Of a stretch of DNA of 64,000 nt, positions 5,745 through 56,843 are shown piece after piece. Both the position numbers and the translations under genes were made by a program. The stretch's first letter is position 1. Each line of letters begins with the position of its first letter. The notes beneath the pieces are model-generated. The model was not told the origin of the DNA. It worked only from the letters and a program-made list of their open reading frames with translations, and made no database searches. Source of the stretch: Bacteroidota bacterium (GTDB lineage Bacteria; Bacteroidota; Bacteroidia; JAHEXY01); assembly GCA_023251875.1 (NCBI GenBank), contig JAHEXY010000001.1:1-64000 (forward strand). The letters are read 5' to 3'.

Positions 5745-5866
5745 CAAAATTAAACCTCCTTTACAACTATATCAAAATCATTTTTGCCTCAAAATGGATT
5801 TCATCTCTACTAATTATTTATGTTAAATATCTTTTTATAAGATGATTATCTATTCGAAAAGTGGGA
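5745..5866 (-). promoter_or_regulatory. Promoter P1 (three-part class) for the SBBP gene at 5675
   Basis: Reading the minus strand: TCCCAC at 5866-5861, 53 bp, GAGATGAAATCCATT at 5807-5793, 16 bp, TTTG at 5776-5773, 20 bp, TAATTTTG at 5752-5745. The last two are the Bacteroidota -33 and -7 boxes. The two upstream boxes recur at the same spacing elsewhere in the window. Confidence 0.8.
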
Positions 5867-5943
5867 AACATCATTGAATTTTACATTATGAAAATAAATA
5901 GCGAATGATATAATTATTTAAAAAAAATAAGTCCAATCATGAA

Positions 5944-6065
5944 CCCAACACATTGAAAGCCATAAAAGCTTATAGCGAGCTGTTTAGTTATAATAAGCAA
6001 TAGAGATAAACTACAATTACTGGTAGAATTGATTTTGTTATATGGGAAAAAGCACATTAATTTTG
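5944..6065 (+). promoter_or_regulatory. Promoter P2 (three-part class) for the YcxB-like gene
   Basis: CCCAAC at 5944-5949, 53 bp, GAGATAAACTACAAT at 6003-6017, 16 bp, TTTG at 6034-6037, 20 bp, TAATTTTG at 6058-6065, then ATG at 6082. The block from about 5941 also resembles the upstream regions at 13435 and 14748, apparently as a copied cassette. Together P1 and P2 fill the divergent gap 5676-6081; nothing else was recognised there. Confidence 0.8.
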
Positions 6066-6081
6066 ATGAAAAATTGATTCA

Positions 6082-6579
6082 ATGCAAAATATAGATTTGA
6101 ATTACAACTATTCTAAACAACAAATAAGAAGGGCGTATCAATTTCATTATAATTCTATTTTTCATCCTAAAAGAGATACGATAATTGCCTTGGTATCATT
6201 AGGTATTGCCATATATTTTCAGAATAAAAATGGGTTAAGTTATTTATGGACAACAGCAATTGTTATTTCGATTTTGTTTATGACACTCCTAGGATATGTT
6301 TGTTATCTTTTGCCATATATAATTTATCAGCTAAATAATAAATTCAAAGAGGAATATCATTTAACGCTTACAAACGAAAGTCTTTTTTTTAAAACGAATA
6401 CCATTGATTCTGAAATCAAATGGAGCTTATATACTAATGTTAAAGAAAATAAGGATTTTGTATTTTTGTATTATGGGAAACACTCATTTACTATTATACC
6501 AAAAAAAGAATTTAATTGTAAAGCAGATTTGGCCGCATTTATAAAATTAATCGAAGAAAAAATACCGAGAAAAATTTAG
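6082..6579 (+). CDS. YcxB-like integral membrane protein
   Basis: 165 residues. Two membrane segments lie at about 32-46 (TIIALVSLGIAIYF) and 55-85 (WTTAIVISILFMTLLGYVCYL). A C-terminal cytoplasmic domain follows, with the YcxB pattern: SLFFKTN, then IKWSLYTNVKE, FVFLYYGKHSFTIIPKKEF and a closing hydrophobic helix. YcxB-like proteins are widespread and have no established function. The start fits promoter P2, 17 bp upstream. The gene stands alone, and the remnant of a lipoprotein gene follows it. Confidence 0.7.
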   Translation: MQNIDLNYNYSKQQIRRAYQFHYNSIFHPKRDTIIALVSLGIAIYFQNKNGLSYLWTTAIVISILFMTLLGYVCYLLPYIIYQLNNKFKEEYHLTLTNESLFFKTNTIDSEIKWSLYTNVKENKDFVFLYYGKHSFTIIPKKEFNCKADLAAFIKLIEEKIPRKI

Positions 6580-6621
6580 TGTTATAGAAAAAATTTTAAA
6601 ATAAAATTTCCAATTTTGAAA

Positions 6622-7890: not shown

Positions 7891-7902
7891 TTTCTATAAG
7901 TT

Positions 7903-8723: not shown

Positions 8724-8754
8724 ATAATTAGAATTAGTAGGGTGGGGAGGAAAA

Positions 8755-9036: not shown

Positions 9037-9099
9037 GAGATAAACCCCAATTACAAGTAGAATTGATTTTGTTATATAGGAAAAAGCACTTTAACTTTA
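9037..9099 (+). promoter_or_regulatory. Promoter P3 for the lipoprotein gene at 9138
   Basis: GAGATAAACCCCAAT (9037-9051), 16 bp, TTTG (9068-9071), 20 bp, TAACTTTA (9092-9099). The 15-bp box is in consensus form. No C-rich box sits 53 bp upstream here. Confidence 0.75.
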
Positions 9100-9137: not shown

Positions 9138-9500
9138 ATGAGTTCATGGATAGTATTGTTTTTTCTTTCATCCTTTTTTGTTGGATGCGAAAATGGTGTT
9201 TACTATAATGAAATGCCTATACAACCTCTATTGATAATTAAAGGCAATGTATTAACAATCAAATCCTCAAACTCAATAAAAAATTCAGCCCAATTGATTT
9301 ATAAAGTATATATTATTTCGGTAGATCAGAACAAAAAAATAGTTTACATAGCTGCCAAACAATCTATCGGGATGCCTTATAGAGATACATTCAGAATTAA
9401 CCTTGACGATTATAAAATTTTCAATACTGAAGCCTACCAATATTATTGGTGCAATCCGGATAAAAAAATGACAACTATGAAGGTTTCATGGGAGAAATAA
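9138..9500 (+). CDS. Small lipoprotein, paralogue of 41233-41592
   Basis: 120 residues with a short hydrophobic leader and lipobox FFVGC (Cys 17), then a body of about 100 residues that I cannot assign. It shares NSIKNSAQLIYKVYI, QNKKIVYMAA-like, IGMPYRDTFRINLD and YQYYWC with the protein at 41233-41592. One Cys in YYWC could pair within the fold. Fragments of the family lie at 6622-6691 and 10919-11041, so it has been copied at least four times. Transcribed from P3. Function unknown. Confidence 0.75.
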   Translation: MSSWIVLFFLSSFFVGCENGVYYNEMPIQPLLIIKGNVLTIKSSNSIKNSAQLIYKVYIISVDQNKKIVYIAAKQSIGMPYRDTFRINLDDYKIFNTEAYQYYWCNPDKKMTTMKVSWEK

Positions 9501-12178: not shown

Positions 12179-13198
12179 CTAATCCCATACTGGAAAATGA
12201 TATATGTTCTCAACATAAAAATCACCATACATATTAAAAATTCCATAGAGCCTGAAATCTTGACCGGGAGAATATTCATTTTTCAGATAGTCATAAAAAT
12301 ATACTTCTCCTGATTTTTTATGCCAATCATACCGTATGGCATTTTCAGTTTTTTGATTATAATATGACTTCGATTTTCTTATGCATACCAAAATAGGTTG
12401 AAAACTGTTAAAACAATACATTACCCTCACATAATCTGATACCGTATCGGGATAATTAAACGTTGATAAACTAAAATGTCCATCTAAATAAAATAAATGG
12501 TCTTTCTTCATCCCAAAATTATTTTTTGCTTCTTTTATTTTTAAATCAATGTTCACATTTGTTAGTTCCTCTGCATGCTTATAAACTAATAGTTCATCGG
12601 TATCATGAACTCTTTTTATATCAACAACCATTATATTTTGTGATCTAGGGCATCCAATAATAGCTACTTTTATTTTTGATAAAGAGTCGTTGGATTTACT
12701 ACCTGGATAAGCATTAAAAGGCAAATTTTCTTTGTGTAAAAGTGCTATTAACTTTTCATCAATCTCAGATGCTGAAATAAAACTATTTCTATTAGGATTA
12801 AACCAAGTGCATTTTACCGCGTTTGATGCAAACCCCAATTGATTTATTCTTTCTTCTAACTGAAAATAAGGGCCATTCGTACTCTCCCCAACCAACTTAT
12901 TATTGTTATAAGTTTTTGTAGTCATTTGCATGGGGCTAATATATTTTAAATACCCTTCTATAATTATTCTTGAATTGTCATTGCTATAAATGCAAGCAGT
13001 ATCTAATTCATTAAATGTTATAGGTACAGGCACAGAATCATTTCCTCTAATAAGTTTAGAATCATCATGTTTTTTAATAGTAGGCTTATCCTTTTTTTGA
13101 TTGCCTATATTGCAGGAAGATAAAATTGAAATGAACAATAGTAAGCCGATTGGCGGTAAAAAAATGCGGAAAAATAAATTTAATGATGTAGATTTCAT
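12179..13198 (-). CDS. Lipoprotein of unknown function (full-length copy)
   Basis: About 339 residues from ATG 13198; an extra TTG codon just upstream would add one residue. The leader FFRIFLPPIGLLLFISIL precedes lipobox LSSC. The mature part has STNGPYFQLEERI, ANAVKCTWFNP and KIKVAIIGCPRSQNIMVVDI with several Cys. No known domain recognised. Its 5' third and upstream region are repeated at 14177-14953, where the gene is cut short. It faces the lipoprotein gene at 11816 convergently, 15 bp apart. Confidence 0.7.
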   Translation of the reverse strand: MKSTSLNLFFRIFLPPIGLLLFISILSSCNIGNQKKDKPTIKKHDDSKLIRGNDSVPVPITFNELDTACIYSNDNSRIIIEGYLKYISPMQMTTKTYNNNKLVGESTNGPYFQLEERINQLGFASNAVKCTWFNPNRNSFISASEIDEKLIALLHKENLPFNAYPGSKSNDSLSKIKVAIIGCPRSQNIMVVDIKRVHDTDELLVYKHAEELTNVNIDLKIKEAKNNFGMKKDHLFYLDGHFSLSTFNYPDTVSDYVRVMYCFNSFQPILVCIRKSKSYYNQKTENAIRYDWHKKSGEVYFYDYLKNEYSPGQDFRLYGIFNMYGDFYVENIYHFPVWD

Positions 13199-13436
13199 CA
13201 ATTCAAAATTGAGTTCTTGTATTTGATTTCCATTAAGGATTATATACCTTCAAAATTATCTTTGATTATCTCGATAAACAAATTCAATTTTAGCCATTTT
13301 GGTGAAGCATCTCAATCCAACTAAAATATAAAATAATAAATTTCAATGCGCTACGCGTTTCTTATCTGTGAAGCATCTGTAAAAATTGTATTGATGCATT
13401 TTTTTGTTAGCTACTAAAGTAAATTCAATAAATGTA

Positions 13437-13558
13437 CCCAACATATTAAATGCCATAAAAGCTTATAGTGAGATGTTTGGCAAAAATAAGCGATATAGAT
13501 AAGCTCCTATTACGGATAGAATTGATTTTGGTATGCCGGAAAAGGCAATGTAAATTGG
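13437..13558 (+). promoter_or_regulatory. Promoter P4 (three-part class), now driving a gene stub
   Basis: CCCAAC (13437-13442), 53 bp, TAGATAAGCTCCTAT (13496-13510), 16 bp, TTTG (13527-13530), 20 bp, TAAATTGG (13551-13558). Copy of P5. It now points into the 3' end of the convergent gene at 13641-14090, so it could make antisense RNA. Confidence 0.65.
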
Positions 13559-13590
13559 TGAAAAATTTGTTGTAAACGAATTTATAATTT

Positions 13591-13633
13591 ATGAAAACAC
13601 ATCTAAATAGCATTATTTTTGCATCAGCAATAG
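13591..13633 (+). pseudogene. 5' stub of the SIMPL-domain gene
   Basis: Starts MKTHLNSI like the intact gene at 14913; homology stops after codon 14 at the edge of the duplication. The frame then runs through unrelated DNA to a stop at about 13725. Confidence 0.8.
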
Positions 13634-13640
13634 TCAATAT

Positions 13641-14090
13641 TTACTTTTTTATTAAAATGTCTGTGTACCATAGATTAGTTGCAATCCCATTAATCCAATC
13701 ATTTAATAGTTTTTCCTTGTCGTAATTTTCCGATACTTTACAGCCAGCACGGAAATATATATTCTTTTCATCTTTAATTGAAAGGAAGTCTGTTTTATAT
13801 TTTTCATAATCAGTGTCTTTAAGCAGATATAGTCCAATTATGCAATAGAATTTACCACAAACATTTGCGTTTTTGTATATGTCCTTATATTCTTGAGATG
13901 CATTTGGCAAATGGTAAATAATATTAAACGCAAGCACTTCAGCAGGCGTTCCTTTATCTCCACCCGATACAACTTGTTTGGTTTCCAGCAAAACCATCAC
14001 AGCTAAAGTTTTTCCTAAACTGTCTTTTTCTTCTTGTCCGAAGACAAGTAGCCAACTCTGACTGAAAAGTATAAGAATAATGTTTTTCAT
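13641..14090 (-). CDS. Secreted protein of unknown function
   Basis: 149 residues with signal peptide IILILFSQSWLLVFGQ. The body contains LGKTLAVMVLLETKQVVSGG, AFNIIYHLPNASQEYKDIY and three Cys (CGKFYC, AGCKV). It has no motif I can assign. It sits exactly between the two copies of the 777-bp duplication, so it was either inserted with that event or is the spacer trapped by it. No homologue elsewhere in the window. Confidence 0.6.
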   Translation of the reverse strand: MKNIILILFSQSWLLVFGQEEKDSLGKTLAVMVLLETKQVVSGGDKGTPAEVLAFNIIYHLPNASQEYKDIYKNANVCGKFYCIIGLYLLKDTDYEKYKTDFLSIKDEKNIYFRAGCKVSENYDKEKLLNDWINGIATNLWYTDILIKK

Positions 14091-14150
14091 GTCTTTGAAT
14101 TTTTATTGTGTTTTTGTCTTGGTGTGTTTAAAGTCAAGTGTAATTATTGT

Positions 14151-14519
14151 TTATTTCTGACGTTCTCTAATGATCGCTAACTGAAAATAAGGACTATTTC
14201 TACTCTCCCCAACCAACTTATTATTGTTATAAGTTTTTGTAGTCATTTGCATAGGACTTATATATTTTAAATACCCCTCTATAATAATTCTGGAATTATC
14301 GTTGCTATGAATGAAAGCAGAATCTAATTCATTAAGTGTTATAGGAACAGGTAAAGAATCGCTACCTCTAATAAGTTTAGAATCATCATGTTTTTTAATA
14401 GTGGGCCTGTCGTTTTTTTGACTGCCTATATTGCAGGAAGATAAAATTGAAATGAACAATAGTAAGCCGTTTGGCGGTAAAAAAATGCGGAAAAATAAAT
14501 TTAATGATGTAGATTTCAT
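14151..14519 (-). pseudogene. Truncated second copy of the 12179 lipoprotein gene
   Basis: From ATG 14519 the first 115 or so residues match the intact protein (same leader and LSSC lipobox), up to SPYFQL. Homology ends at 14177 and the frame stops at 14151. About two thirds of the protein is lost. The remaining ORF could still be made and lipidated, but it lacks the conserved core. Confidence 0.8.
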
Positions 14520-14953
14520 CAATTCAAAATTGAATTTGATTTCCATAGTGGAATATAAATCTTCAAAATTATCTTTGATTATCCCGATAAACAAATTCAA
14601 TTTTAGCCATTTTGGGGAAGCATCTCAATCCAACTAAAATATAAAATAATAAATTTCAATGCGCTACGCGTTTCTTATCTGTGAAGCATCTGTAAAAATT
14701 GTATTGATGCATTTTTTTGTTAGCTACTAAAGTAAATTCAATAAATGTACCCAACATATTAAATGCCATAAAAGCTTATAGTGAGATGTTTGGCAAAAAT
14801 AAGCGATATAGATAAGCTCCTATTACGGATAGAATTGATTTTGGTATGCCGGAAAAGGCAATGTAAATTGGTAAAAAATTTGTTGTAACCTAATTTGTAA
14901 AAAAAAATAGTTATGAAAACACATCTAAATAGTATTGTTATTGCGTCAGCAAT
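14177..14953. repeat. 777-bp duplication, copy 2
   Basis: Second copy of 12857-13633, offset by about 1320 bp. Here the SIMPL gene is complete and the lipoprotein gene is truncated, the mirror image of copy 1. The gap 14520-14912 holds only this duplicated upstream region and promoter P5. Confidence 0.9.
14750..14871 (+). promoter_or_regulatory. Promoter P5 (three-part class) for the SIMPL gene
   Basis: CCCAAC (14750-14755), 53 bp, TAGATAAGCTCCTAT (14809-14823), 16 bp, TTTG (14840-14843), 20 bp, TAAATTGG (14864-14871). The -7 box is weak at its 3' end. Confidence 0.7.
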
Positions 14954-15644
14954 AGTATTAGCAGCTCTGGCATTCTCTACTGCATTTAAAAATAGAAATA
15001 AACCATATAATTCTATTTCAGTAACCGGCCTTGGCAGTAAAGATTTTGTTTCTGATCTAATCGTATGGAGTGGGTTATTTAGTAAAAATAGGCCGAATTT
15101 GAAAGATGCATATACAGACCTTGACAAGGACAGAGAAAAAATTAAAAATTATTTGATTTCAAAAGGAATAAAAACCGAAAATATTATTTTTTCTGCTATT
15201 GATATAAACAAGAAATTTGAAGATGAGTACAATTCTTCCGGTTACAAAACAAAATCTGTATTTACAGGATACCAACTTCAACAAAGTGTACAAATTGAAT
15301 CAAGCGATGTAGACAGGATTGAAGATGTTTCAAGACAAGTAAGTGAATTAATAAATTCTGGGGTTGAATTTTACTCTTATAAGCCGCAATATTATTATAC
15401 TAAATTGGCAGCACTAAAAATAGAAATGATTGCAGAGGCAACAAAAGATGCCAATATGCGGGCTCAAAAAATAGCTGAAAATGCAGAGAGCCAAGTTGGG
15501 CCACTGAAAAATGCCAGTATGGGAGTTTTTCAAATTGTTGCACAAAATTCTTCTGAAGACTATTCATGGGGCGGTTCATTTAATACATCATCTAAAAGAA
15601 AAACAGCTACCATTACTGTAAAACTTGAGTATGAAACTGAATAG
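14913..15644 (+). CDS. SIMPL-domain periplasmic protein
   Basis: 243 residues. An N-terminal signal or anchor (IVIASAIVLAALAFSTAF) is followed by the SIMPL/DUF541 pattern: ISVTGLGSKDFVSDLIVW at the start, AALKIEMIAEATKDANMRAQKIAENAE in the second half, and the closing strand TATITVKLEYE. SIMPL proteins are envelope proteins that form oligomers; their role is poorly defined and has been linked to oxidative stress and to OMP-type complexes. Length is normal for the family. It overlaps the next gene by 14 bp, so the two are probably translated together. Confidence 0.85.
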   Translation: MKTHLNSIVIASAIVLAALAFSTAFKNRNKPYNSISVTGLGSKDFVSDLIVWSGLFSKNRPNLKDAYTDLDKDREKIKNYLISKGIKTENIIFSAIDINKKFEDEYNSSGYKTKSVFTGYQLQQSVQIESSDVDRIEDVSRQVSELINSGVEFYSYKPQYYYTKLAALKIEMIAEATKDANMRAQKIAENAESQVGPLKNASMGVFQIVAQNSSEDYSWGGSFNTSSKRKTATITVKLEYETE

Positions 15645-16528: not shown

Positions 16529-16617
16529 GAGATAAACCCCAATAAGCGCATAAAATAAAGTTGAACCCAATTTAGTATTCCAATACATTTGCTATAAATC
16601 TCAAGAAAATATTTTTG
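16529..16617 (+). promoter_or_regulatory. Promoter P6 for the T9SS gene at 16642
   Basis: TTTG (16588-16591), 18 bp, TATTTTTG (16610-16617). The -33 box is preceded at 16 bp by AAAGTTGAACCCAAT (16557-16571), a weak form of the 15-bp box, and a full GAGATAAACCCCAAT lies at 16529-16543. The block 16491-16605 is nearly the same as 23129-23250. Confidence 0.65.
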
Positions 16618-16641: not shown

Positions 16642-17745
16642 ATGAAAACAAATTTACGGCCTTCATTAGTAATGGCAACTGTAATGTTAGCTGCATTAAA
16701 TGTAAGTTCTCAAAATGCTGTAGTTATTAACGAAGCAGACATTATTCAGCTAAGCCAGCAAGGCCAAATTATTAGCGATACTGCTGTTAGCAAATATTCA
16801 AACGATGAAGCTGTAAAGTATGGAGCAAACATTAGTTGGGACCTCTCTCAGCTTACATCAGATAAAGTGGATCCGGTTGAATTCGTATCTCCTTCTGCAA
16901 CTTCTAATGGAAATATGTATCCCCAATCAAATTTATGTGCCGCTACACCGCTTAGTCAATATTCTGTTTATTTCGAAAAAACAGCCACTGATTTATCTAT
17001 AGATGGCATTGTTGGTGATGTGCTTGGTTTAGGAGTCGCATTAAATGTAACAATGACACCAAGCCAAACATTGTTAACTTTTCCTTCAACGTATCAAACC
17101 GGTTTTGCCGATACCAGTGTGGCAACAGCAAGTATTTATTATGGCCAAAACGAAACTTTTGTATACAATAATATTACGTATACATTTTTTATAGATTCAA
17201 TGAAAACCAAACGCACATTTCAAATAAACAGCGAAATTGATGGTTATGGAACACTAACAACCCCAGCCGGAACTTTTGATGTGTTGCGACAAAAAGTGCA
17301 GGAAGTACAAGTAGATACCGACTATGCCTACGTACAAGGTACCGGATGGTATCCTTGGCAGTATGGAACAGTTACGCAATATAAATTAAGATGGTGGGCA
17401 AAAACGATAGGTTATCCGGTATTGGATTGTGAATATAATCCTACAAATAATAAAGCCTCTAACTTTAATTATCTTACGATACCTACGGTAGTTTTAACTA
17501 CAAGCATAAATGATATTAATTTGGCAAACGCATTAAAAATATATCCAAATCCATCTACAGGAAAATTTAGTATTGAATCAAACGGGATAGCATACAACCG
17601 AATTGAAATTTACAATATAATGGGAGAAAAAGTTTTACAGCAAACCTCAAAAGATATAGATATTACTAATTCTCCCAAAGGAATCTATTTTGTAGAAATT
17701 TATGATGGAGATAAAATGTATACCGAAAAAATTATCGTTCAGTAA
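16642..17745 (+). CDS. T9SS-sorted secreted protein
   Basis: 367 residues. Signal peptide LVMATVMLAALNVSSQ. The single globular body (about 25-285) contains ISWDLSQLTSD, YGTLTTPAGTFDVLRQK and RWWAKTIGYPVL, a pattern I have seen in uncharacterised Bacteroidota secreted proteins but cannot name. The T9SS type A sorting domain occupies about the last 75 residues (KIYPNPSTGKFSI, IEIYNIMGEKV, SPKGIYFVEI, EKIIVQ). Exported to the cell surface or medium; function unknown. Stands alone, driven by P6. Confidence 0.8.
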   Translation: MKTNLRPSLVMATVMLAALNVSSQNAVVINEADIIQLSQQGQIISDTAVSKYSNDEAVKYGANISWDLSQLTSDKVDPVEFVSPSATSNGNMYPQSNLCAATPLSQYSVYFEKTATDLSIDGIVGDVLGLGVALNVTMTPSQTLLTFPSTYQTGFADTSVATASIYYGQNETFVYNNITYTFFIDSMKTKRTFQINSEIDGYGTLTTPAGTFDVLRQKVQEVQVDTDYAYVQGTGWYPWQYGTVTQYKLRWWAKTIGYPVLDCEYNPTNNKASNFNYLTIPTVVLTTSINDINLANALKIYPNPSTGKFSIESNGIAYNRIEIYNIMGEKVLQQTSKDIDITNSPKGIYFVEIYDGDKMYTEKIIVQ

Positions 17746-17860: not shown

Positions 17861-17922
17861 TAGATGAAGACCATTTGGATATAAATTGATTTTGTTATAC
17901 AAGGAAAAGCACTTTAACTTTG
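17861..17922 (+). promoter_or_regulatory. Promoter P7 for the small membrane protein at 17949
   Basis: TAGATGAAGACCATT (17861-17875), 15 bp, TTTG (17891-17894), 20 bp, TAACTTTG (17915-17922). The 15-bp box is one base closer than in the other promoters. Its position rules out the longer reading frame that begins at 17886, inside the -33 box. Confidence 0.7.
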
Positions 17923-17948
17923 CTGAAAAATTGGTTGTAAACTATGAT

Positions 17949-18251
17949 ATGAAAAATATTTTATTTTCAACAATTAGTGCTGCTCTTATAATTGTAATAG
18001 CAGCCGGCATATCTGTTTTTGCAAGCTATTATTTACGAGGGAAAAACTACTCAGATTTGGGAGTGGGTATGTATATGCATTCCGATTGGGCATTTTTTGT
18101 TGGCGTTATAATCTATATGGGAATACTATTTTCAGGATATCAATTTGTAAAAAATTATTTACCCAAAGAATTCAAATCAATATTGATAATACTTGCCTTA
18201 GCCACATTAGTACCATTGCTTTGTTTAGTCAGCTTTACAGTAAGCTTTTAA
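17949..18251 (+). CDS. Small three-helix membrane protein, copy 1
   Basis: 100 residues from ATG 17949. Three membrane segments: ISAALIIVIAAGISVFASYY, FFVGVIIYMGILFSGYQF and ILIILALATLVPLLCLVSF. A charged loop (RGKNYSDLGVGMYMHSDW) sits between the first two. Almost identical to 23296-23598. No family recognised. Both copies are followed by a convergent family B gene, so the pair was duplicated as a unit. Confidence 0.7.
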   Translation: MKNILFSTISAALIIVIAAGISVFASYYLRGKNYSDLGVGMYMHSDWAFFVGVIIYMGILFSGYQFVKNYLPKEFKSILIILALATLVPLLCLVSFTVSF

Positions 18252-21374: not shown

Positions 21375-22829
21375 TTATTTTTCAATAACAATTTTTTTGG
21401 AAATTTGATTATCTCCAATTTGCAGATTGATTGTATATATGCCTTTTGCATAGGCCGACAAATCAATTTTATTTTGGTAATATGTGCCTGATACTTTAGA
21501 TGTTTGAAATAATAATAGGTTACCACTTACATCATACATTCTTAATATTACATTCACATTATTTTCTGTAATACAGTTAATGATACATTGTTCTTGAGCA
21601 GGATTAGGGAAAATACTAACTTTAATTTCCGATTTATACAAGTTTTTTATGCCTGCACTTAAATAAGCACTATAATATCTGTAACTGGAATCTGTATTAT
21701 CCCAATTGTTACCATTCCAAGCTTGTCTTAATTCACTTGTTAAATTATTGTTTAAATCGTAGCTATTAAGGTACCGAAAGTCATCTGCCCAACTGTTAAT
21801 TTCCCAATATTGTGTTAGGTTAATTGTTAAATTATTATTTGAATCGTAGGTACAAAGACCCTGATAATCATTATCCCAACTGCTGCCATTCCAATGTTGG
21901 TAAAGGCCAGATGTTAAATTATTGTTTGTATCGTAGGTATAAAGATGCTGATAATCATTATCCCAACTGCTGCCATTCCAATATTGGTAAAGGTCAGATG
22001 TTAAATTATTGTTTGAATCGTAGGTATAAAGATTTCGGGTGCAATTTCTCCAACTGCTCCCTACCCATGGTTGGTATTTATAACAGGTTTTATTATTATT
22101 TGAATCGTACGTATAAAGATACCGAGAGTGATTATCCCAACTGCTGCCGTTCCAATTTTGGTATATGTTAGATGTTAAATTATTATTTGAATCGTAGGTA
22201 TAAAAATCTTGAGCACTATTATCCCAACCGTTTCCATTCCAAGATTGGGATAAACATGTTGTTAAATTATTGTTTGAATCGTTGGTGCAAAGTTTCTGAG
22301 AATAATTATACCAACTGCTGCCGTTCCATAATTGATATATATCAGATATTAAATTATTACTTGAATCGTAGGAATAAAAATCTTGAGCGTTATTATCCCA
22401 ATCGTTTCCATTCCATATTTGGTGTAAGTCTGTTGTTAAATTATTGTTTGAATCGTAGGTGTTAAAATTTTGATAACAATTTCCCCAACTGCTGCCGGTC
22501 CAAAATTTGACTAAGAAAAATGTTTTATTGTTATTTGAACCATAACCATAAAAATATTTACCATATAATTCCCAATTATTGGTATTATCCAAGTGCCAGT
22601 TATATATGCTGTCAAGCAAGTCGCTAGATGATGCTACATTTAGGGCAGAATTATTTCCAGATATTTTTTCTTCCGCATTAAAAATATTTATTTTATTTGA
22701 CATGAAAACTTCTTTGTTATCAGATAGCTGTACCAACTTGCTTAATTGATTTTCTTGTTTGGTTTGAGCATAACAAACATTCACAATTGTAAAAGTGGGA
22801 AAAGTCAAAATCATTAAAATAGTTTTCAT
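21375..22829 (-). CDS. T9SS-sorted protein with 29-residue YDSNNNLT/WNGSSWDN repeats, copy 1
   Basis: 484 residues. Signal peptide ILTFPTFTIVNVCYAQ. After a leader region come about eleven repeats of 29 residues (87 bp) of the form YTYDSNNNLTSDLYQYWNGS plus SWDNDYQHL, to about residue 385. The Tyr, Asp, Asn and Trp positions repeat strictly, like YD repeats of Rhs proteins but shorter. A T9SS type A sorting domain ends the protein (SIFPNPAQEQCII, MYDVSGNLLLFQ, YAKGIYTINL, KKIVIEK). The array probably folds into a long beta structure exposed at the surface. Paralogue at 28719-30170. Confidence 0.85.
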   Translation of the reverse strand: MKTILMILTFPTFTIVNVCYAQTKQENQLSKLVQLSDNKEVFMSNKINIFNAEEKISGNNSALNVASSSDLLDSIYNWHLDNTNNWELYGKYFYGYGSNNNKTFFLVKFWTGSSWGNCYQNFNTYDSNNNLTTDLHQIWNGNDWDNNAQDFYSYDSSNNLISDIYQLWNGSSWYNYSQKLCTNDSNNNLTTCLSQSWNGNGWDNSAQDFYTYDSNNNLTSNIYQNWNGSSWDNHSRYLYTYDSNNNKTCYKYQPWVGSSWRNCTRNLYTYDSNNNLTSDLYQYWNGSSWDNDYQHLYTYDTNNNLTSGLYQHWNGSSWDNDYQGLCTYDSNNNLTINLTQYWEINSWADDFRYLNSYDLNNNLTSELRQAWNGNNWDNTDSSYRYYSAYLSAGIKNLYKSEIKVSIFPNPAQEQCIINCITENNVNVILRMYDVSGNLLLFQTSKVSGTYYQNKIDLSAYAKGIYTINLQIGDNQISKKIVIEK

Positions 22830-22879: not shown

Positions 22880-22942
22880 CAAAATTAAATGATACAACGA
22901 TAAGTAGCAAAATCAATTTTTATAGTTTTTGTGGTTTATCTA
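22880..22942 (-). promoter_or_regulatory. Promoter P8 for the repeat protein at 22829
   Basis: Minus strand: TAGATAAACCACAAA (22942-22928), 16 bp, TTTG (22911-22908), 20 bp, TAATTTTG (22887-22880). The core boxes match the consensus fully. The region 22943-23128 beyond it holds no gene I can support. Confidence 0.8.
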
Positions 22943-23128
22943 ATACATGAAAAAATCATACAGCAATACTATTCATTGTGATAGCATTGTATTTTAAAGG
23001 ATATATCTATAGAAAAGTTTTTTTGCTAGCTACAATTATAGTTTGTATGAGAGAGAAATATATTTACACTTCAGGCTTAATATTATTTTCAACGAAAAAA
23101 TCATTTACAGCAATCTTGTTTCTGTTTC

Positions 23129-23269
23129 AGCAAGCGCTAAATAGGCTCAATTACAATATCCTGCATTAGTTTATAGATCGAGATAAACCCCAAAAATCAG
23201 ATATAATAAAGTTGAACCCAATTTAGTATTCCAATACATTTGCTATAAATATCAAGCACTTTAACTTTG
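23129..23269 (+). promoter_or_regulatory. Promoter P9 and copied upstream cassette for the membrane protein at 23296
   Basis: TTTG (23239-23242), 19 bp, TAACTTTG (23262-23269). AAAGTTGAACCCAAT (23208-23222) lies 16 bp upstream of TTTG, and a full box GAGATAAACCCCAAA lies at 23180-23194. The block 23129-23250 is nearly identical to 16491-16605, which drives an unrelated T9SS gene, while the -7 box and 5' leader match those of P7. Confidence 0.65.
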
Positions 23270-23295: not shown

Positions 23296-23598
23296 ATGAA
23301 AAATATTTTTCTTTCAACAATTAGTGCTGCTCTTATAATTGTAATAGCAGCCGGCATATCTGTTTTTGCAAGCTATTATTTACGAGGGAAAAACTATTCT
23401 GATGTGGGAGTGGGTATGTATATGCATACCGATTGGGCATTTTTTGTTGGCGTTATAATCTATATGGGAATACTATTTTCAGGATATCAATTTGTAAAAA
23501 ATTATTTACCCAAAGAATTCAAATCAATATTGACAATACTTGCTTTAGCCGCACTATTACCATTACTTTTCTTAATCAGCTTTACAGTAAACTTTTAA
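23296..23598 (+). CDS. Small three-helix membrane protein, copy 2
   Basis: 100 residues from ATG 23296, differing from the copy at 17949-18251 at only a few positions (for example MHTDW for MHSDW). Same three membrane segments and loop. Its upstream region is different beyond the -7 box, so the coding copy was joined to another promoter. The convergent family B gene follows, as in copy 1. Confidence 0.7.
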   Translation: MKNIFLSTISAALIIVIAAGISVFASYYLRGKNYSDVGVGMYMHTDWAFFVGVIIYMGILFSGYQFVKNYLPKEFKSILTILALAALLPLLFLISFTVNF

Positions 23599-27565: not shown

Positions 27566-27687
27566 CAAAATTATTTCTTATTACAACAGTTTGCAAAATC
27601 AAATAATGAGGTTTATGTGGTTTATCTCCATCAAATTAAAATTATAAAACAGTATGTTTCATTATTTTAGGATCATTGCAGATGGGA
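27566..27687 (-). promoter_or_regulatory. Promoter P10 (three-part class) for the SUKH gene
   Basis: Minus strand: TCCCAT (27687-27682), 53 bp, GAGATAAACCACATA (27628-27614), 16 bp, TTTG (27597-27594), 20 bp, TAATTTTG (27573-27566). The upstream block resembles those at 30250-30350 and 56750-56843. Confidence 0.8.
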
Positions 27688-27804
27688 ATCTGTTTCTGAA
27701 AAATATTTTTTTGAGAAAAAATTAACTTACCTAATTTATGTTATATCGAATTATTATCTGTTATTGTTCCATATAATGTAAGGAGATTTTAAATTTCATT
27801 CAGC

Positions 27805-30229: not shown

Positions 30230-30351
30230 CAAAATTATTTTCTTTTGTTACAGTTTGCAAATTCAAATAAAGCGCTTATTGTGGTTTATCTCCATCAAAA
30301 TAAAATTATAAAGCAGTATGTTTCATTATGCTAGGATCATGGCAAGTGGGA
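30230..30351 (-). promoter_or_regulatory. Promoter P11 (three-part class) for the 28719-30170 operon
   Basis: Minus strand: TCCCAC (30351-30346), 53 bp, GAGATAAACCACAAT (30292-30278), 16 bp, TTTG (30261-30258), 20 bp, TAATTTTG (30237-30230). All four parts match the consensus. Confidence 0.85.
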
Positions 30352-30402
30352 AAGGTTTGTAGAAAAATAATATTGTTTTTTGAAAAATATTATTTTAGTA
30401 TT

Positions 30403-30554: not shown

Positions 30555-30577
30555 TAATGTGAAGTTCAGAAGATGTT

Positions 30578-30699
30578 CCCCACTTTTGTTCTATTCAAAT
30601 TACTCATACAGAAATAATAAATACCGCTAAACGCTATAGATGAAGCCTCATTTAACACTAAATTGATTTTGATAAAATTGTAATGATGCTTTAATTTTG
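30578..30699 (+). promoter_or_regulatory. Promoter P12 (three-part class) for the VCBS-type gene
   Basis: CCCCAC (30578-30583), 53 bp, TAGATGAAGCCTCAT (30637-30651), 16 bp, TTTG (30668-30671), 20 bp, TAATTTTG (30692-30699). The upstream 80 bp are similar to those of P13. Confidence 0.85.
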
Positions 30700-33080: not shown

Positions 33081-33096
33081 TAATTCGAAAGATGTT

Positions 33097-33218
33097 CCCC
33101 ACTTTTATTCTATTCAAATTACTCATAAAGAAATAATAAGAATTCCTATACTTCATAGATGAAAAACCATCTGGAGGCAAGTTGATTTTTATAAGCCGGA
33201 AGAAAGAGTGTAAATTGA
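33097..33218 (+). promoter_or_regulatory. Promoter P13 (three-part class) for the HExxH-PDZ protease
   Basis: CCCCAC (33097-33102), 53 bp, TAGATGAAAAACCAT (33156-33170), 16 bp, TTTT (33187-33190) in place of TTTG, 20 bp, TAAATTGA (33211-33218). Spacing is exact though the core boxes are weak. Confidence 0.7.
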
Positions 33219-34601: not shown

Positions 34602-34634
34602 GAAAATAGTTTTAGGGCTTATGTAATAGATCAT

Positions 34635-34756
34635 ACCCAAACCCATCATTCATATAAGCAAGAATAGACGAATGTTATAACTGAATATAGCATGAGATGC
34701 ACCACAAATAGTACACGAATTGATTTTTTAATACACTGAACTAAACTCTATTTTTG
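34635..34756 (+). promoter_or_regulatory. Promoter P14 (three-part class) for the large adhesin gene
   Basis: ACCCAA (34635-34640), 53 bp, GAGATGCACCACAAA (34694-34708), 16 bp, TTTT (34725-34728), 20 bp, TATTTTTG (34749-34756). The segment from 34602 to here is copied at 43690-43866 as P15. Confidence 0.75.
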
Positions 34757-43690: not shown

Positions 43691-43720
43691 AATAGTTTCA
43701 GAGCTTGTTTCACAGATTAT

Positions 43721-43842
43721 ACCCCAGCCCCTCATTCATATAAGCAAGAATAGCTGAATGTTATAACTGAATATAGCATGAGATGCACCACAAACAGTAC
43801 ACAAATTGATTTTTTAATGCTCTGAACTAAGCTATATTTTTG
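43721..43842 (+). promoter_or_regulatory. Promoter P15 (three-part class) for the lipoprotein at 43874
   Basis: ACCCCA (43721-43726), 53 bp, GAGATGCACCACAAA (43780-43794), 16 bp, TTTT (43811-43814), 20 bp, TATTTTTG (43835-43842). A copy of P14, now in front of a different gene: P14 drives the large adhesin. Confidence 0.75.
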
Positions 43843-43873: not shown

Positions 43874-44371
43874 ATGATAAAATATCTACTATACTTGGTT
43901 CTTATTGTTGTATCATGCAAACAAACTAATGATAAATCGCAGTATAGTAGAAGCTATTTAAATACTTTTTTAAGTACAAGACTCGAACAAAAAAATATTC
44001 AAACTTTTTTTAACCAACACAAACTTGATATAACGCTTACCAATACTGAAAATGTAAACCCGTATAGAATTTTTCTTCATGAATTTAATGCCTCAGAAAA
44101 TCAAATAGCACAACTAATAAACATCTTAGAACTTGACAGTGTTACCCAAAAAGATTTTTATGAAATTCACATGAATAAATATGTTAATGCGGACTTTCAA
44201 ATACATAGTTCCATAGGGCTTGACTATATAAAAAATCCGACAATATTATTCTATAAAGAAAAAATTGGCAATGAAACTGCCCAAAAAGAATTAAAAGTTT
44301 CTAAAGTTTATCTCTATTATAATAAAGAAAATAAAAAAGCATGCTTTCAAGTTTATTATGGATGGGGGTAA
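43874..44371 (+). CDS. Lipoprotein of unknown function, copy 2
   Basis: 165 residues, the same leader and lipobox as 40708-41208, and the same sequence from FFNQHKLDI to the end (with GWG for EWG). Residues 20-42 (DKSQYSRSYLNTFLSTRLEQ) are clearly different from copy 1. Copy 1 follows a YVTN gene; this one has its own promoter taken from the adhesin cassette. Homology with the copy 1 region ends at about 44394, where the lipoprotein gene that follows copy 1 is replaced by the L,D-transpeptidase gene. Confidence 0.75.
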   Translation: MIKYLLYLVLIVVSCKQTNDKSQYSRSYLNTFLSTRLEQKNIQTFFNQHKLDITLTNTENVNPYRIFLHEFNASENQIAQLINILELDSVTQKDFYEIHMNKYVNADFQIHSSIGLDYIKNPTILFYKEKIGNETAQKELKVSKVYLYYNKENKKACFQVYYGWG

Positions 44372-45751: not shown

Positions 45752-45794
45752 CCATTTTTAGTTACGATAATATAATTAAAATGCAATGATGAAA

Positions 45795-45914
45795 CCCATT
45801 TTCACGACATTTTAAATGCTTACAAAAATATTGTTGGGATAGTTGAAGCGAAAATCAATCCTAAATTCAGACGTAAATGATTTTGATAAAATAATGTAGG
45901 CGTTTTTAATTTTA
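45795..45914 (+). promoter_or_regulatory. Promoter P16 before the 34-codon ORF
   Basis: CCCATT (45795-45800), AAAATCAATCCTAAA (45851-45865), TTTG (45882-45885), 21 bp, TAATTTTA (45907-45914). The segment 45780-45890 is similar to 47250-47360 (P17). Box matches are weaker than in the other promoters. Confidence 0.55.
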
Positions 45915-45918: not shown

Positions 45919-46023
45919 ATGAAAAAAAATTTTAAAGTAATGATAACAAGCGAAAAACTTAAAGTATATCAATTATACAATGGAGATAGATTAAAGCTAT
46001 TTAAAACAGGCAGACTAGTCTAG
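45919..46023 (+). CDS. Small ORF of 34 codons, possible gene remnant
   Basis: MKKNFKVMITSEKLKVYQLY then NGDRLKLFKTGRLV and stop. It begins 5 bp after the -7 box of P16, so if made its leader is very short. The motif LKVYQLYNGD resembles PMKIYKLTGD in the open frame at 41644-41855. Its end overlaps the minus-strand gene at 46001 by 23 bp. Probably the 5' end of a broken gene; a short peptide cannot be excluded. Confidence 0.35.
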   Translation: MKKNFKVMITSEKLKVYQLYNGDRLKLFKTGRLV

Positions 46024-46903
46024 TCGCAAAACCTGGAGCTTTTAATAATGTTGGTTCATGATCATTTGTATCTAATAGTAGTTTCAAGTTTTCCAGCTTA
46101 ATTTTTTTGTCGCTAGAATCACTGGCAAATAATTTACCATCAATGGCTGCAATGAGCCGTCCTTTGTGATCCCAGTCGGCCCATTGCCCATTATGAATTT
46201 CAATAATTTTCTCGTTTTGTTTTAAGTAAAATTTTGCTTGATATTTATCATTATTCGATGAACGCTCCATTAAAATTATCGATTTTGATTTTTTCTCTGT
46301 CCGTTCCCTTATTTCAGGCTGTCTGGTTTTATTATATGCGTCATTTCCGTATTTATTTTTTAATTTTTTAAATTCTTGTATTAGTTTCCAACCATCCCTA
46401 TCAAGCCTGCTTGAAAAAATAGATTTGCATTCTTTTTTTACATCATTTGTATGTGGTATAATTTTTATTGCTTTGGCTTGAAAATTTGGATGAGGTTCTA
46501 TAATGCTATGGTTTAATAGTAAGGTATGATTATCTATAAATAATCCGCCACCGCCATAAGTAGTGCCACCATTTGGCCATAAACCAATAGCGGTAAAATA
46601 GGGCGGCTTGCTTATTGCTGTCCAAGTAGAAGATATTGCTGACTGCATTTGTTTTTTTGTATATTTTGATGCAAAATAAACAAGCAAGCTTCCATCCGGA
46701 TTCAAATCGCATTTTCTTTCATCAATTCTTCCGTGAAACCATTGTCCAAACTCAAAATAATCTTTATTTAAATTCCATTTTATTAGTTGTATCCAATTTG
46801 ATGGACCCCTTCTAAATAGTACTGCCACATTTGCTTCTCTAGCTACAATAAAGAAAAGCCTTGCAGGATTTTTTATTTGTTTTTCTCCTGAGAGTTGAAT
46901 CAT
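46001..46903 (-). CDS. Conserved hypothetical protein
   Basis: 300 residues, no signal peptide. N-terminal PARLFFIVAREANVAVLFRR, GPSNWIQLIKWNLNKDYFEF, GQWFHGRIDERKCDLNPDGS, LLVYFASKYTKK: this block follows a pattern I recall from uncharacterised proteins in many bacteria (a C-x-L-S/N-PDG turn after a GRIYE-like stretch). The later part is charged with NGQWADWDHKGRLIAAIDGK like a beta-propeller blade. No function known. It stands alone; 46904-47260 holds no recognisable gene. Confidence 0.65.
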   Translation of the reverse strand: MIQLSGEKQIKNPARLFFIVAREANVAVLFRRGPSNWIQLIKWNLNKDYFEFGQWFHGRIDERKCDLNPDGSLLVYFASKYTKKQMQSAISSTWTAISKPPYFTAIGLWPNGGTTYGGGGLFIDNHTLLLNHSIIEPHPNFQAKAIKIIPHTNDVKKECKSIFSSRLDRDGWKLIQEFKKLKNKYGNDAYNKTRQPEIRERTEKKSKSIILMERSSNNDKYQAKFYLKQNEKIIEIHNGQWADWDHKGRLIAAIDGKLFASDSSDKKIKLENLKLLLDTNDHEPTLLKAPGFATRLVCLF

Positions 46904-47260
46904 TTTAGTTGAGTTTGCATAATGAATTCTGGTTTCTGTATTTTATATCCCTTTGCTCAAATGATCAGTAGGATGACTTAAGCAAGCAGTATAGCAAAAA
47001 AAATATCATGAAATTTGATGGTAGTATTCGAACCGGCCTCATGGAATAATATAATATAAATTTTGTAAAGTTAGCATTAACTCTAAAATGAAACAATATC
47101 AAGTAAAGGCCTTTAAGGAGTTTATCTCACAGCATTGCAAACAAAAATGCACTAACATTCATACTTGTAGTAGCATATTTAATGGGAAACATCCTTAAAA
47201 TATTTTTTGATAAACCACTATTGAATAGTCTTTAACTAGAATTAAAAATGTAATGATGAA

Positions 47261-47382
47261 ACCCATTTTTACGATATTTAAGATACTTACAAAAAGATAG
47301 TTGGGATAGTAAAAACGAAAAGATCAATCCTAAATTCAAGCATAATTGATTTTGATAAAATTGAAAATATGGTTTATCATTG
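47261..47382 (+). promoter_or_regulatory. Promoter P17 (three-part class) for the lipoprotein at 47405
   Basis: ACCCAT (47261-47266), 53 bp, AAGATCAATCCTAAA (47320-47334), 16 bp, TTTG (47351-47354), 20 bp, TATCATTG (47375-47382). This excludes the ATG at 47369, which lies inside the spacer. Confidence 0.65.
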
Positions 47383-47404: not shown

Positions 47405-47941
47405 ATGAAAAATAAATCAATGGCTAAATTACAAATTAATCAGATGAACTCATTACTACTTCCATTACTCATTTTTATCTCTTTTAATTTTAATAGTTGT
47501 GATCGTGTTCAAAACACGAATGAAGAAAAAACTTTAGCTGAAACAAGCTTGAAAGATTCCATTATAGAATTAAAATCAAATAAAACAATTGAAACAGATA
47601 ATTTCATTACTACCCCATGTGCAATTATTGTTTCACCTACCGCCCATAAAGTAGATAGTTTAAAAAAAATAAATGAAGAAGATTTTTATACTGTTGCAGA
47701 CGATAATCAATTTTATATTGCTGTGGCAAGAAAATATTTAGACTCAACAAAAGCTACTATCATTAACAAAGAATCAATTGGGTCATTAAAATTTAAAATC
47801 AATGATGGAAAAATTGTTGAAAGCAATTTATCAGAATTGTGCTGGGGTATTTTATTATTCAACGGACAAGCAGCACCCATTCAGGCCGACATAAGCGTTT
47901 TTAGTTCTGAATACAAAAAGTATATGAATATAAAAAAATAA
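47405..47941 (+). CDS. Lipoprotein: shared leader plus unrelated body
   Basis: 178 residues from ATG 47405; ATG 47444 (MNSLLLPLLIFISF) is an alternative that gives a cleaner leader. Lipobox FNFNSC, then RVQNTNEEKTLAETSLKDS, the same leader segment as at 11816 and 44945. The body (FITTPCAIIVSPTAHKVDSL, EDFYTVADDNQFYIAVARKY, SLKFKINDGKIVESNLSELC) is unrelated to the other two. No family recognised. Confidence 0.7.
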   Translation: MKNKSMAKLQINQMNSLLLPLLIFISFNFNSCDRVQNTNEEKTLAETSLKDSIIELKSNKTIETDNFITTPCAIIVSPTAHKVDSLKKINEEDFYTVADDNQFYIAVARKYLDSTKATIINKESIGSLKFKINDGKIVESNLSELCWGILLFNGQAAPIQADISVFSSEYKKYMNIKK

Positions 47942-52050: not shown

Positions 52051-55000
52051 TTATCTCAGCACAATTCTCTTCATTTGGCTGTTGTTAAAACTATCTTGAA
52101 CCTGCAGCATATAAACCCCACCGGAAAGATTGCCAAGCAATATTTTTCCACTAAAATTATTTTCTTTTAAAAAGTGAATAGTATTTACTTTTTTTCCTAC
52201 CACATCATATAAAATAATGTTTGTAATATTTTTTCCTGAAACATCTTCAATAAAAATTTCATCCGATGCAGGATTTGGATAAACTAAAATGGTATTTTCA
52301 TTTTGTGTTTCTGAAATTGCAGTTATCGGATTTATGTATTCATTGCTGCAAACCATGGGCATTATATAATGCGCAATATCTCTGCCCCATCTAAAAGAAT
52401 AATTATACCAAGAGCCATTGTTCCATTGTTCCCAGGCTGTTCCGGGAGAGGTTTCTCCATCATCATTATGAATAATTGCTATTGTATCACCGGCAGTAGT
52501 TGGTAATTGTATTCCCGCATAATAGGTAGTTGTTAAAACAACAGGAGAAAAATTTACATAGGTATAAGCCTGATTACTTATATCTTTTGAAATGGTTGAG
52601 ATTAATACATCTTTTGATGCAATAATATTTCCGGGCGTACCTTTGCTGCCTGTATTATCCCACAAACAAACTTTTACAGTTGATGTAGAGGATGAATAGC
52701 TGGCTTTTCCGAATTTAATTTTTAAACCTGAAAGTAAAACCGCTGAAGTATCTAATACAAATACATCGGCTTTAGCCATATCTCCATACGCATTAGTTCC
52801 AGAAATATAACCACTGGAGCCAAGCGATAAAATACTTTCTGCATCGGCTCCTTCATCAACATTACTAATCGTATCGCAATAATAAAAATTCGATTCCAGT
52901 ACGGTAATATATTCTGTTTTTGATTCGGTATCAAAGCTGTTTAGATTAAGCGAAGTTAAAACTACTGCATATTTACCGGCTGTGCTGTAACTAATTCCCG
53001 ATGGATTTTGATCGCTCGATGAGGATGGGCTTCCTCCTACAAATGTCCAAGCCCATGAAGTAGGATCTCCTGTTGATAAATCTGTAAAGTCAATGGATTG
53101 ACCAGACACAATTGTTGTATTACTTGCGCTAAAATTTGTGTTAACAGGAACAACTGTATCTCCTTTTACAGTAATGTATGCCGTTTTAGTTTCCACATCC
53201 CATGTATAACTATTATATGCAATTAAAGTTACAGCATAGGTGCCGGGTGTGTTGTATAAAATAGCTGTTGGATTTTGATCGCTCGACATAGATGGACTAC
53301 CACCATCAAACGACCATTGCCAATTGGTTGGATTGCCCGATGACAAATCAGTAAATGCAATTGAATTTCCGGAAACAATGCTTGTTGAATTGGCCAGGAA
53401 ATTTGTATTTACTACATAGTTGGCGCCAGGTAAAACTGTAATGTAATTTACTTTGGTTTCTACATCTGATCCATTGGTATTTGATGCAGTAAGGCTAATA
53501 GTATAGGTTCCGGGTGTACTAAAAGTTACTTTGTTGGGATTTTGTTTTGTTGATGATGAAGGACTGCCTCCACTAAAACTCCATTTCCAGGCAGTAGGCG
53601 TTCCGCTTGAAGCATCATAAAATTGAACCGTAGAGCCTGATGTAACAGTTGTAGTATCTGATGTAAAATCGGCAGAAACAATAGTTGTAGTGGCAGAAAC
53701 AACCGTTATATAATTTGTTTTTGTAAGCGTATTGCTTCCATTAAAGTTAGATGCAATGAGGCTTACGGAATAGGTTCCAACGGTATTGTAAATGATTCCT
53801 GATGGATTGGCTACAGTAGAAGATGTTGTATTTGCTCCTGTAAAACTCCATTGCCAACTGTTGGGAGAGCCACTTGATAAATCAGTAAAGTTAACTGTAT
53901 CACCCACATTTATAAGCGTAGAGCTGGCTGCAAAATCTGCCGTAGGCGCTACCGATACAGTAGATGAATTACACATAACAGGCACGATCAAATTCGTCAA
54001 TTCATAAGTATACACTTCAGAATAAGAATGCCAGCTTTCATCATACCATTGCTCCCAGCCTGTTCCCGGATGGGCAGATGCTGTTGTATTGCTTAGCAAG
54101 GCTACCGTATCACCCGCTTGTGTTGGCAATTCTACGCCAACATAAAAAGGAGTAGTTATATTTACCGGAGATGAAAAAGCAACTCCTGTATAATCCCCAT
54201 TTGATATATCGGTTGCGATGGAACTTATGTACACATCTTCAGATGCCAATTCAATACCCGGGCTTCCATCTATCCCTGAATTATCCCACACTTTAATTTT
54301 TATTTTTGAACTTGCCGAAGAATAATCAGCACGCAAAAAATACAAATACACTCCGCTTAATTCTTTTCCCGAAGGGTAGGTATAAAAATAATCTGCTTTA
54401 GCACGATCGAGAAATCCATTGTTTCCGGATAGGTAGCCTGAACTTCCCGGCATATAATATAAAACAGGCTGATCATTGTTAAAATCATAATTCGACAAGG
54501 CAAAACATTCATCATCGGTATTGGGCTGTACCGTTATTTGCCGAACAGCAGTATCTGTGCCTATGCTATTACTTGCCCACAAATAAACCTTGTATACGCC
54601 CGGATTATAAAATGTAACCGAAGGATTTTGCAGGGAAGAGCCGGAAGGCGATCCATTGCTAAATGCCCAAAACCATGATGTGGGCGATCCGGTACTTAGG
54701 TCTTGAAAAGTTACCGTTTCTCCGGCTTTTATTGTGGATGAGTTGGCTGTAAAATCTGCATCAATTTCTTGCTGACATAAAACGGGACGAATAAGAAATG
54801 ATGAATTAATGCCCCAATTATCCTGATCTGAAAACGCATGCCAGGTATTATCACTTCTTTTATTCCATGCAGTAGCCGGACTTGCAGTGTACATTGTATT
54901 AGTATATAAAACAACGGTATCTCCTGCCGAATATGTTATTTCTATTCCAACATAAAAATTTGTAGTTATTTGTACAGGACTTGAAAAATTTACGACAGTA

Positions 55001-56697
55001 TAATAACTGTTGAGCACGTCATTATAGATAGAACTTAATAAAACATCTTGAGAATACAATTCATTTCCCGGAGCACCACTGCTACCTGTATTATCCCATA
55101 CTTTTACTTTTAATTTAGATGTAGATGATGCATATTTTGCATAGCCAAATGCCAGCATTACGCTTGAAATTGACGAGCCTGAAGGATAGGCATAAAAATA
55201 ATCTGCAAAAGATAAATCGCCATACGAATTATGGCCTGAAATAAAACCTCCGGAACTTTTATATAGTGTAATAGAATCATTATTTAAATCCACATTCGAA
55301 AGTGTATCGCAGCTTAATGTTGTTTGGGGATAAACCGTTATGTAGGCTGTTTTGCTAATGCTATCTGTGGTACTTCCTTTGCTTACTGATAGACTTACTT
55401 CATAATTTCCGGCAACATAATAGGTAACTGTTGGGTTTTGTAAACTTGAAGAATAGGGTTGTGCGTTAGAAAAACTCCAATTCCACTGATTTGGCGATCC
55501 ACTTGAGGCATCATAAAAAGTAATACTTTCTCCGGCATATATGGCGGTTGTATTGGCTGTAAAATCTGCGGTTAAGCTTGAAGACGTAGAACTTGAGCAT
55601 CCCTTTGAAGTAAGTAAAGAAGCTCTTGTTGTATTTAAAGTTGCCAACATACGGCTGACCTGGCCCGAAGTAAACATATTCGCACAATCATCATCTGCAT
55701 AATCCATGTAATTCATAAACATAATTCCCGGAGAAGTAGTACTGCATGCATCAGTATATGGAAATGAAGGACAACCATAGGTGTAATTGGCTTGATCGGG
55801 AGTATCTGTAACATAATCTGTACCGGTGCAGGCTCCGCTATCATCACCCCAAATATGGCGTAGATTAAGCCAGTGCCCTATTTCATGTGTAGCAGTGCGT
55901 CCCAGGTGATAGGGAGCCACAACTGTTCCTGTTGTTCCAAAGGCAATATAATTTATTACAACGCCATCGGTTTCATAATTTCCGGTTCCGGGAAATTGCG
56001 CATAACCCAATAATGATGAGCCCAAATTACACACCCATATATTTAAATATTGATCCGTTGGCCAGGCATCAATGCCGCCTGAGCTTGTATATTTCATATC
56101 TTCATTGTAGGGAAAAGAAGTTGTGCTGGTGCTGGTTCTTGTAATTCCACTTGTGGCATTTCCATTTTCATCTGTTGAGGCCAGGCAAAATTCTATTTGT
56201 GCATCGGCTGCATAACTGCTAAAGGCAGATGGAACATTAACTGCATTTGCATTTAATTTTCTAAAATCTTGATTCAATACATCTAGTTGAGATTGTATTT
56301 GAGTGTAACTAATATTTTCTGTACTTGTATTATACAACACATGCACCACTACCGGTATGGTAATTATGCTGTTTTGTTTTTTGCTTACATTTTTTAAAAT
56401 CCAATTGTTTGTATTTTGCTCTTGCAAATCAAGCTCGTTTTGTAAAGCCGGATTTTTAGCAATTTGTTCCACTAATTTTTCGTGAGAATAGCATCTTATT
56501 TTGGAAGAAGCTGATGCTATTTTTGTTTGCTGTTGTGCATCACTGCCTCTTTGTATGCTAGTTGTAGTGCTTAATTTTTTAGTATTGATTGGAGTTTGCG
56601 CATGTATATTATTGATCAAGCCAATAATGCAAATAACAATTGCCATAATGATGGCATACAACAATCTTGTTTCTTCGATTTCATTTCTTCGATACAT
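52051..56697 (-). CDS. M43-family (cytophagalysin/pappalysin-like) metalloprotease with PKD domains, T9SS-sorted
   Basis: 1548 residues. N-terminal membrane-type signal ([22 protein letters not shown]), propeptide, then an M43 catalytic domain with [18 protein letters not shown] (zinc ligands in [11 protein letters not shown], about 269-279) and the downstream [11 protein letters not shown] Met-turn. After it alternate PKD domains ([20 protein letters not shown]) and an unnamed beta domain of about 180 residues at about 462-641, 729-907 and 1273-1449 ([25 protein letters not shown]). A run of four PKD domains lies between the second and third. A T9SS sorting domain ends it ([20 protein letters not shown]). 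Predicted extracellular protease, substrate unknown. Confidence 0.9.
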
Positions 56698-56721
56698 TTT
56701 TTTATAGTTTAGTTTTTAATG

Positions 56722-56843
56722 ACAATTTATTTCTCATTCACGCCTAATACAAATTCAAATAAAGTACTGATTGGGGTTTATCTCCATCAAAATAAAATTA
56801 TAAAGCAGTATGTTTCATTAAGCTATGATTATAACATGTCGGA
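56722..56843 (-). promoter_or_regulatory. Promoter P18 (three-part class) for the M43 protease
   Basis: Minus strand: TCCGAC (56843-56838), 53 bp, GAGATAAACCCCAAT (56784-56770), 16 bp, TTTG (56753-56750), 20 bp, TAAATTGT (56729-56722). The 15-bp box is perfect. Confidence 0.8.

Follow-up and report, generated by a model that had tools for sequence, protein, structure and literature searches.

The question raised by this locus is why so many genes of unrelated content carry one and the same rigidly spaced promoter, and whether that promoter is a working switch or a trace of repeated copying. The DNA analyzed is a stretch of 64,000 nucleotides from a Bacteroidota bacterium (assembly GCA_023251875.1, contig JAHEXY010000001.1, positions 1 to 64,000 of the forward strand), hereafter the window; the contig carrying it is referred to as C11, and a second contig of the same genome, 337,636 bases long, as C7. 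At 21 sites in the window and six on C7, a Bacteroidota-type -33/-7 promoter is preceded at a fixed distance by a GAGATRAANCCC box. The interpretation that we favor, with a probability of about two in three, is an island-specific regulon, in which some 27 transcription units would be under a class-I-like activated promoter served by a dedicated DNA-binding activator.

Architecture of the operator promoter

The first-pass annotation of the window had proposed a shared rigid promoter at no fewer than fifteen sites. This promoter is real and the set is larger than claimed, at about 27. All 14 main boxes listed there are present, with correct positions and strands, but the minus-strand copies at 13301, 14614 and 47116 and those on C7 were overlooked. 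Two sites listed as looser forms, 16557 and 23208, do exist but are in fact full or near-full boxes that start at 16529 and 23180 and keep the register to a -33 TTG. The total of 27 takes in these two and the diverged copies at C7:312253, 318706 and 322261.

An unforced alignment of 18 window sites left the AGAT, TTGATTTTG-like and TA..TTT columns invariant or nearly invariant. A model trained on the sequences of 16 window sites only (R1) scored 19 window copies at 27 to 72 bits and independently recovered three C7 copies on which it had not been trained (E-values of 4e-17, 7e-15 and 1e-12). The pattern AGAT-N19-A-N-WTGAWWTT gave 37 matches, compared with 5 for the reversed control, concentrated between C7:312 kb and the end of that contig and in C11:5.7-57 kb; about 12 matches outside these intervals and one inside (C11:42075) are without the RAANCC part. 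Among 25 tabulated copies, 24 have an offset of 26 bp from AGAT to TGA, and 22 have one of 54 bp from AGAT to the -7 TA. Because some of the added sites came from patterns containing AGAT and TGA, conservation is inflated at exactly those bases; the CCC part, the -7 box and the copy at 67 bp described below are outside the search pattern.

Nearly all of the 25 copies have a TTTG-like -33 and TA..TT at fixed spacing, and belong to the Bacteroidota -33/-7 type as defined here (TTTG about 19-21 bp ahead of TAnnTTTG). Many copies have a complete -33/-7 core, and several have a degraded -7 box. TAnnTTTG is the -7 consensus cited for Bacteroidetes (PMC5682007). The island promoters have the same core as the canonical Bacteroidota promoter (-33 TTTG, -7 TAnnTTTG), but in addition the -33 has a conserved TTGA extension (extended form TTGATTTTG), the spacing is fixed at 20 bp, and a 13-bp asymmetric operator, GAGATRAANCCCA, is present upstream in one or two copies. 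The abiE and ATPase promoters, previously reported to lack the element, indeed have no strong box upstream in a strand-specific scan.

One operator in direct repeat

Further upstream, a C-rich box had been described as a distinct element, making a promoter of three different parts. It is instead the GAGATRAANCCCA operator again, in direct orientation and with a weaker match, and in most promoters it lies exactly 67 bp before the main box. This follows from the main-box profile, which, run over the upstream DNA of all copies with subfamilies equally weighted, has a single outstanding peak at exactly -67. The score there is -6.2, whereas the mean is -15.9 and the second-highest value -11.9; only 2 of 2000 random rotations reach that maximum, and the self-match at lag 67 is 0.44 vs a mean of 0.063. 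Sequences found at this offset include AAGATGTTCCCCA, TAGATCATACCCA, ATGATGAAACCCA and GAGACGAAACCAG. The pitch is 66 bp at 13301 and 14614, 65 bp at 45851, 87 bp at C7:312253 (near-perfect GAGATAAAACCCA) and 91 bp at C7:318706, and no upstream copy is found at the fixed spacing at 9037 and 17861. At 10.5 bp per turn, 67 bp corresponds to 6.38 helical turns, about 137 degrees off, so that the two boxes lie on different faces of the DNA and not on the same face as had been suggested; no evidence was found for the phase-dependent regulator proposed along with it.

Five divergent pairs (13301/13496, 14614/14809, 47116/47320, 5795/6003 and 30280/30637) have four operators in a row, with gaps of about 52, 52, 60, 64 and 213 bp, respectively, between the upstream operator copies (computed by hand from the coordinates).

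Confinement to a single island

All 27 promoters are located in a single region, at least 82 kb long, from C7:312 kb to C11:57 kb, which is 1.7% of the genome and of unremarkable base composition. C7 ends inside its last gene, and C11 opens inside its first, which is truncated at base 1; both genes are on the minus strand, and the C11 gene contains the same repeats as the C7 gene (80-87% over 410 bp). The two contigs therefore probably adjoin at this broken repeat gene, which would place the operator promoters in one continuous stretch. The two fragments of this giant repeat gene lie at window 1-3915 and C7:336679-337636.

Searches of the 4.8-Mb genome with R1 and with patterns found no credible copy outside the island, where no R1 score exceeds 19.4 bits. 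A count over the complete genome had been proposed in the first-pass annotation: the number of copies is far above chance, but every credible one is within the island. The annotation had overlooked this confinement, and likewise the mosaic recombination and partial copying that took place there. The regulon is thus considered island-specific, and a genome-wide regulon, with operator promoters spread over the chromosome, was rejected. Since this strict operator, common to about 27 unrelated and mostly exported genes, is confined to one chromosome stretch, it may well be a private switch for this gene block, under which genes arriving in the island may come, or stay.

The collections searched yielded no credible relative of the element. 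The nearest genomes compared are related at the level of the class; two sets of 60 and 395 such genomes gave only weak or partial matches, judged to be chance (best E-value 5e-5, 25 bits). A 119-base pattern matched 28 contigs once each in 84,980 species genomes, near chance (about 7-18 expected under simple composition models), and had six matches in viral contigs; the best match rescored at only 14.6 bits. A BLAST search of one divergent pair against phages and plasmids gave no match, and a full-text literature search for the operator letters found no relevant paper.

Mechanism and alternatives

With the transcription start set about 6-7 bp past the -7 box, the two operators are centered near -62 and -129. 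The -62 region is the position of class-I activators, as in class-I promoters activated by CRP at -61.5, and the downstream operator is read as an activator site because it is centered there. A dedicated DNA-binding protein would occupy both operators; at the downstream one it would touch RNA polymerase, while the upstream one would be a distal helper through cooperative binding or looping, and the occupied operators would switch on the block of mostly exported proteins together. The activator itself may be encoded nearby in the island. The island site differs from the CRP case: it is asymmetric and non-palindromic, is repeated in direct orientation 67 bp away, and has no known regulator.

One alternative is that the promoter was mainly copied along with gene cassettes across a recombination-prone island, the boxes being retained ancestry and not a dedicated operator. 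In its favor are near-identical subfamily members, a tandem duplication of 1.3 kb between 13.2 and 15.1 kb, one type of divergent pair that recurs at 30.2 kb and C7:326 kb, and two mosaic promoters, of which 33157 resembles 30638 in its left half (0.72) and 13497/14810 in its right half (0.61), and 17862 is composed in a similar way. Because local duplication and mosaic recombination produced some of the copies, the boxes are not fully independent. However, the twelve promoter subfamilies are at 42% average distance, and between them the spacers have diverged to an identity of 0.32-0.36, near the 0.30-0.33 of shuffled sequence, while identity is 0.64 in the main box, 0.75 in the extended -33 and 0.66 in the -7 box, with the spacing kept. 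Neutral decay predicts otherwise. This persistence of boxes and spacing next to nearly shuffled spacers argues for selection, in agreement with the earlier suggestion that function explains the promoters better than copying; recent copying alone is insufficient, and we consider a predominantly copied origin unlikely.

Taking the boxes to be functional, a protein bound there could also act in the opposite direction, as a repressor or silencer that keeps the surface genes of the block switched off. Repression by looping is possible with two widely spaced operators, and a promoter core that is complete in many copies would suit such a role. Both operators are nevertheless wholly upstream of the -33 box, at the usual position of class-I activators, and the degraded -7 of several copies also speaks against this reading, which makes repression quite improbable in our assessment. 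The mosaic promoters and the many unrelated downstream genes in one island could also be taken as signs that the element serves recombination or cassette exchange, for instance to switch expression, and coincides with promoters only by accident; given that the boxes face genes and keep a fixed spacing to -33 and -7, and that no recombinase family was detected among the open reading frames (ORFs) scanned with Pfam, there is very little to recommend this explanation.

Several observations weigh against the activated island regulon that we prefer. Of the 25 copies scanned, 7 lack the second operator or have it at another spacing, the conservation of AGAT and TGA is partly by construction for the pattern-added sites, and some copies arose by the duplication and recombination described above. 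The start, the binding and the activation are predictions from sequence. No recognized helix-turn-helix regulator was found among the island ORFs scanned. Most of the roughly 23 relatives of the candidate regulators in this genome (see below) have no operator of this kind close by, and a test at lag 67, crude and weak, gave no 67-bp signal in the upstream regions of these genes generally.

Candidate regulators

Two genes of the island, at 56994-58550 (+; divergent from the 56772 operator) and C7:322550-324112, are paralogues of 28% identity, each divergent from an operator promoter, and are the leading, unproven candidates for the regulator. Both match the BT2802 family (NCBIfam NF058569; E-values of 1.9e-45 and 1.4e-28) over its full length, at profile positions 4-501 and 4-502 of 502, with scores of 156 and 100 bits that are far below the family cut-off of 550; no paralogue in the genome passes this cut-off. 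We take BT2802 to be RusR, based on the family name and the locus numbering. About 23 BT2802-like paralogues, proteins of around 520 residues, are found in the genome, several of them adjoining giant genes, and the family is present in 64 of 119 same-class genomes. The published description of RusR has it regulating BT2803-2809, the Rus locus for ribose utilization in Bacteroides thetaiotaomicron (PMC12596196). The island candidates are distant relatives of this family and would control some 27 units whose proteins are unrelated and mostly exported, whereas RusR has one catabolic operon.

RusR-like proteins have no known DNA-binding domain in the libraries searched, a PDB search gave no match, and viral contigs contained no homologue of the candidate regulator. 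An AlphaFold model of the candidate, made without an alignment, had a predicted local distance difference test score (pLDDT) of 45 and was unusable. It is conceivable, although rather unlikely, that the 23 or so RusR-like proteins form a large, unstudied class in which every member locally regulates a private gene block through an operator of its own, and that the island is the first case to be readable from its operator, direct-repeat geometry and regulon; no comparable set of repeated promoters was found at the other RusR-like loci. The 13-bp operator, present twice and 67 bp apart, is a precise bait for finding the protein, and offers a direct test of whether RusR-like proteins, which are common in the class, are DNA-binding activators.

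Downstream genes

Nearly all operator promoters are oriented toward a gene, with mostly 78-151 bp between box and ATG. A tail motif of the type IX secretion system (T9SS) was found by a script scan in eight downstream proteins, most of which also have a Pfam Por_Secre_tail match, and most of the remaining targets start with signal-peptide-like, lipoprotein-like or membrane sequences. The designation as a surface-protein regulon is accordingly correct only in part, and the exceptions include a SUKH-domain and a YcxB-like protein. SigP of Porphyromonas gingivalis targets T9SS component genes, with the proposed motif C(T)AAA(G/C/T)A(T)A(C)T(A/G)A (PMC4800418). The PorXY-SigP system likewise regulates secretion-related genes in Bacteroidota; in comparison, the proposed SigP motif is a different one, the island targets include T9SS cargo, and the island core resembles the primary-sigma type.

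The promoters and the genes they are predicted to drive are given here in their order along the window. At the left end, 5745..5874 (-; operator pair with downstream copy 5795-5807, -33 and -7) precedes 3927-5675, with a T9SS tail, and 5936..6065 (+; operator pair with downstream copy 6003-6015, -33 and -7) precedes the YcxB-like 6082-6579. The promoter at 9037..9099 (+) has the downstream operator only and drives the lipoprotein-like 9138-9500. Two previously overlooked operator pairs of 66-bp pitch are found at 13251..13379 (-; lipoprotein gene 12179-13201) and 14564..14692 (-; 14151-14600, a truncated paralogue). They alternate with the operator pairs at 13429..13558 (+), followed by a truncated copy of the gene at 14913, and at 14742..14871 (+), which drives 14913-15644 with a SIMPL domain. 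The region 13200-15100 is a tandem duplication with a 1,313-bp period, made up of a divergent operator pair and truncated copies of both flanking genes.

The full 15/15 box at 16529..16591 (+), with its -33 TTG and TACATTTG in register and without the TTGA extension, drives 16642-17745 (T9SS tail), and is followed by the mosaic promoter 17861..17923 (+; downstream operator only; membrane protein 17949-18251). The operator pair at 22880..23009 (-) drives 21375-22829 (T9SS tail), and the 14/15 box at 23180..23242 (+), with -33 in register, drives the membrane protein gene 23296-23598. Operator pairs are also present at 27566..27695 (-; 26736-27530, SUKH domain), 30230..30359 (-; 28719-30170, T9SS tail), 30570..30699 (+; 30757-32874, FG-GAP and T9SS tail), the mosaic promoter 33089..33218 (+; 33273-34601, PDZ domain), 34627..34756 (+; 34782-39185, T9SS tail) and 43713..43842 (+; lipoprotein-like 43874-44371, then a YkuD-domain gene). 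A weaker promoter with an operator pair of 65-bp pitch at 45786..45914 (+) has no close downstream ORF of at least 60 residues. The diverged and formerly overlooked operator pair at 47066..47195 (-) drives 46001-46903, that at 47253..47382 (+) drives the lipoprotein-like 47405-47941, and the last, at 56722..56851 (-), drives 52051-56697, with M43 peptidase and PKD domains and a T9SS tail. On C7, two diverged operator promoters precede giant genes of 3,314 and 2,043 residues (C7:302190-318640), the former with an RHS-repeat match in part of its length.

Other repeats

Short AACTTTGAAC/TTTAAAC repeats lie directly before the start codons of unrelated genes, in upstream regions at C8:34058, 62063, 69602, 79070 and 79759, C22:488999 and 490541, and C11:75902. 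A dispersed repeat, GGGCTAAAGCCCGTATCTTTGATTGATTTTTAACCCCAGACTTAAGTCTGGGG, is present in apparently identical copies at C7:325827 and C11:77390.

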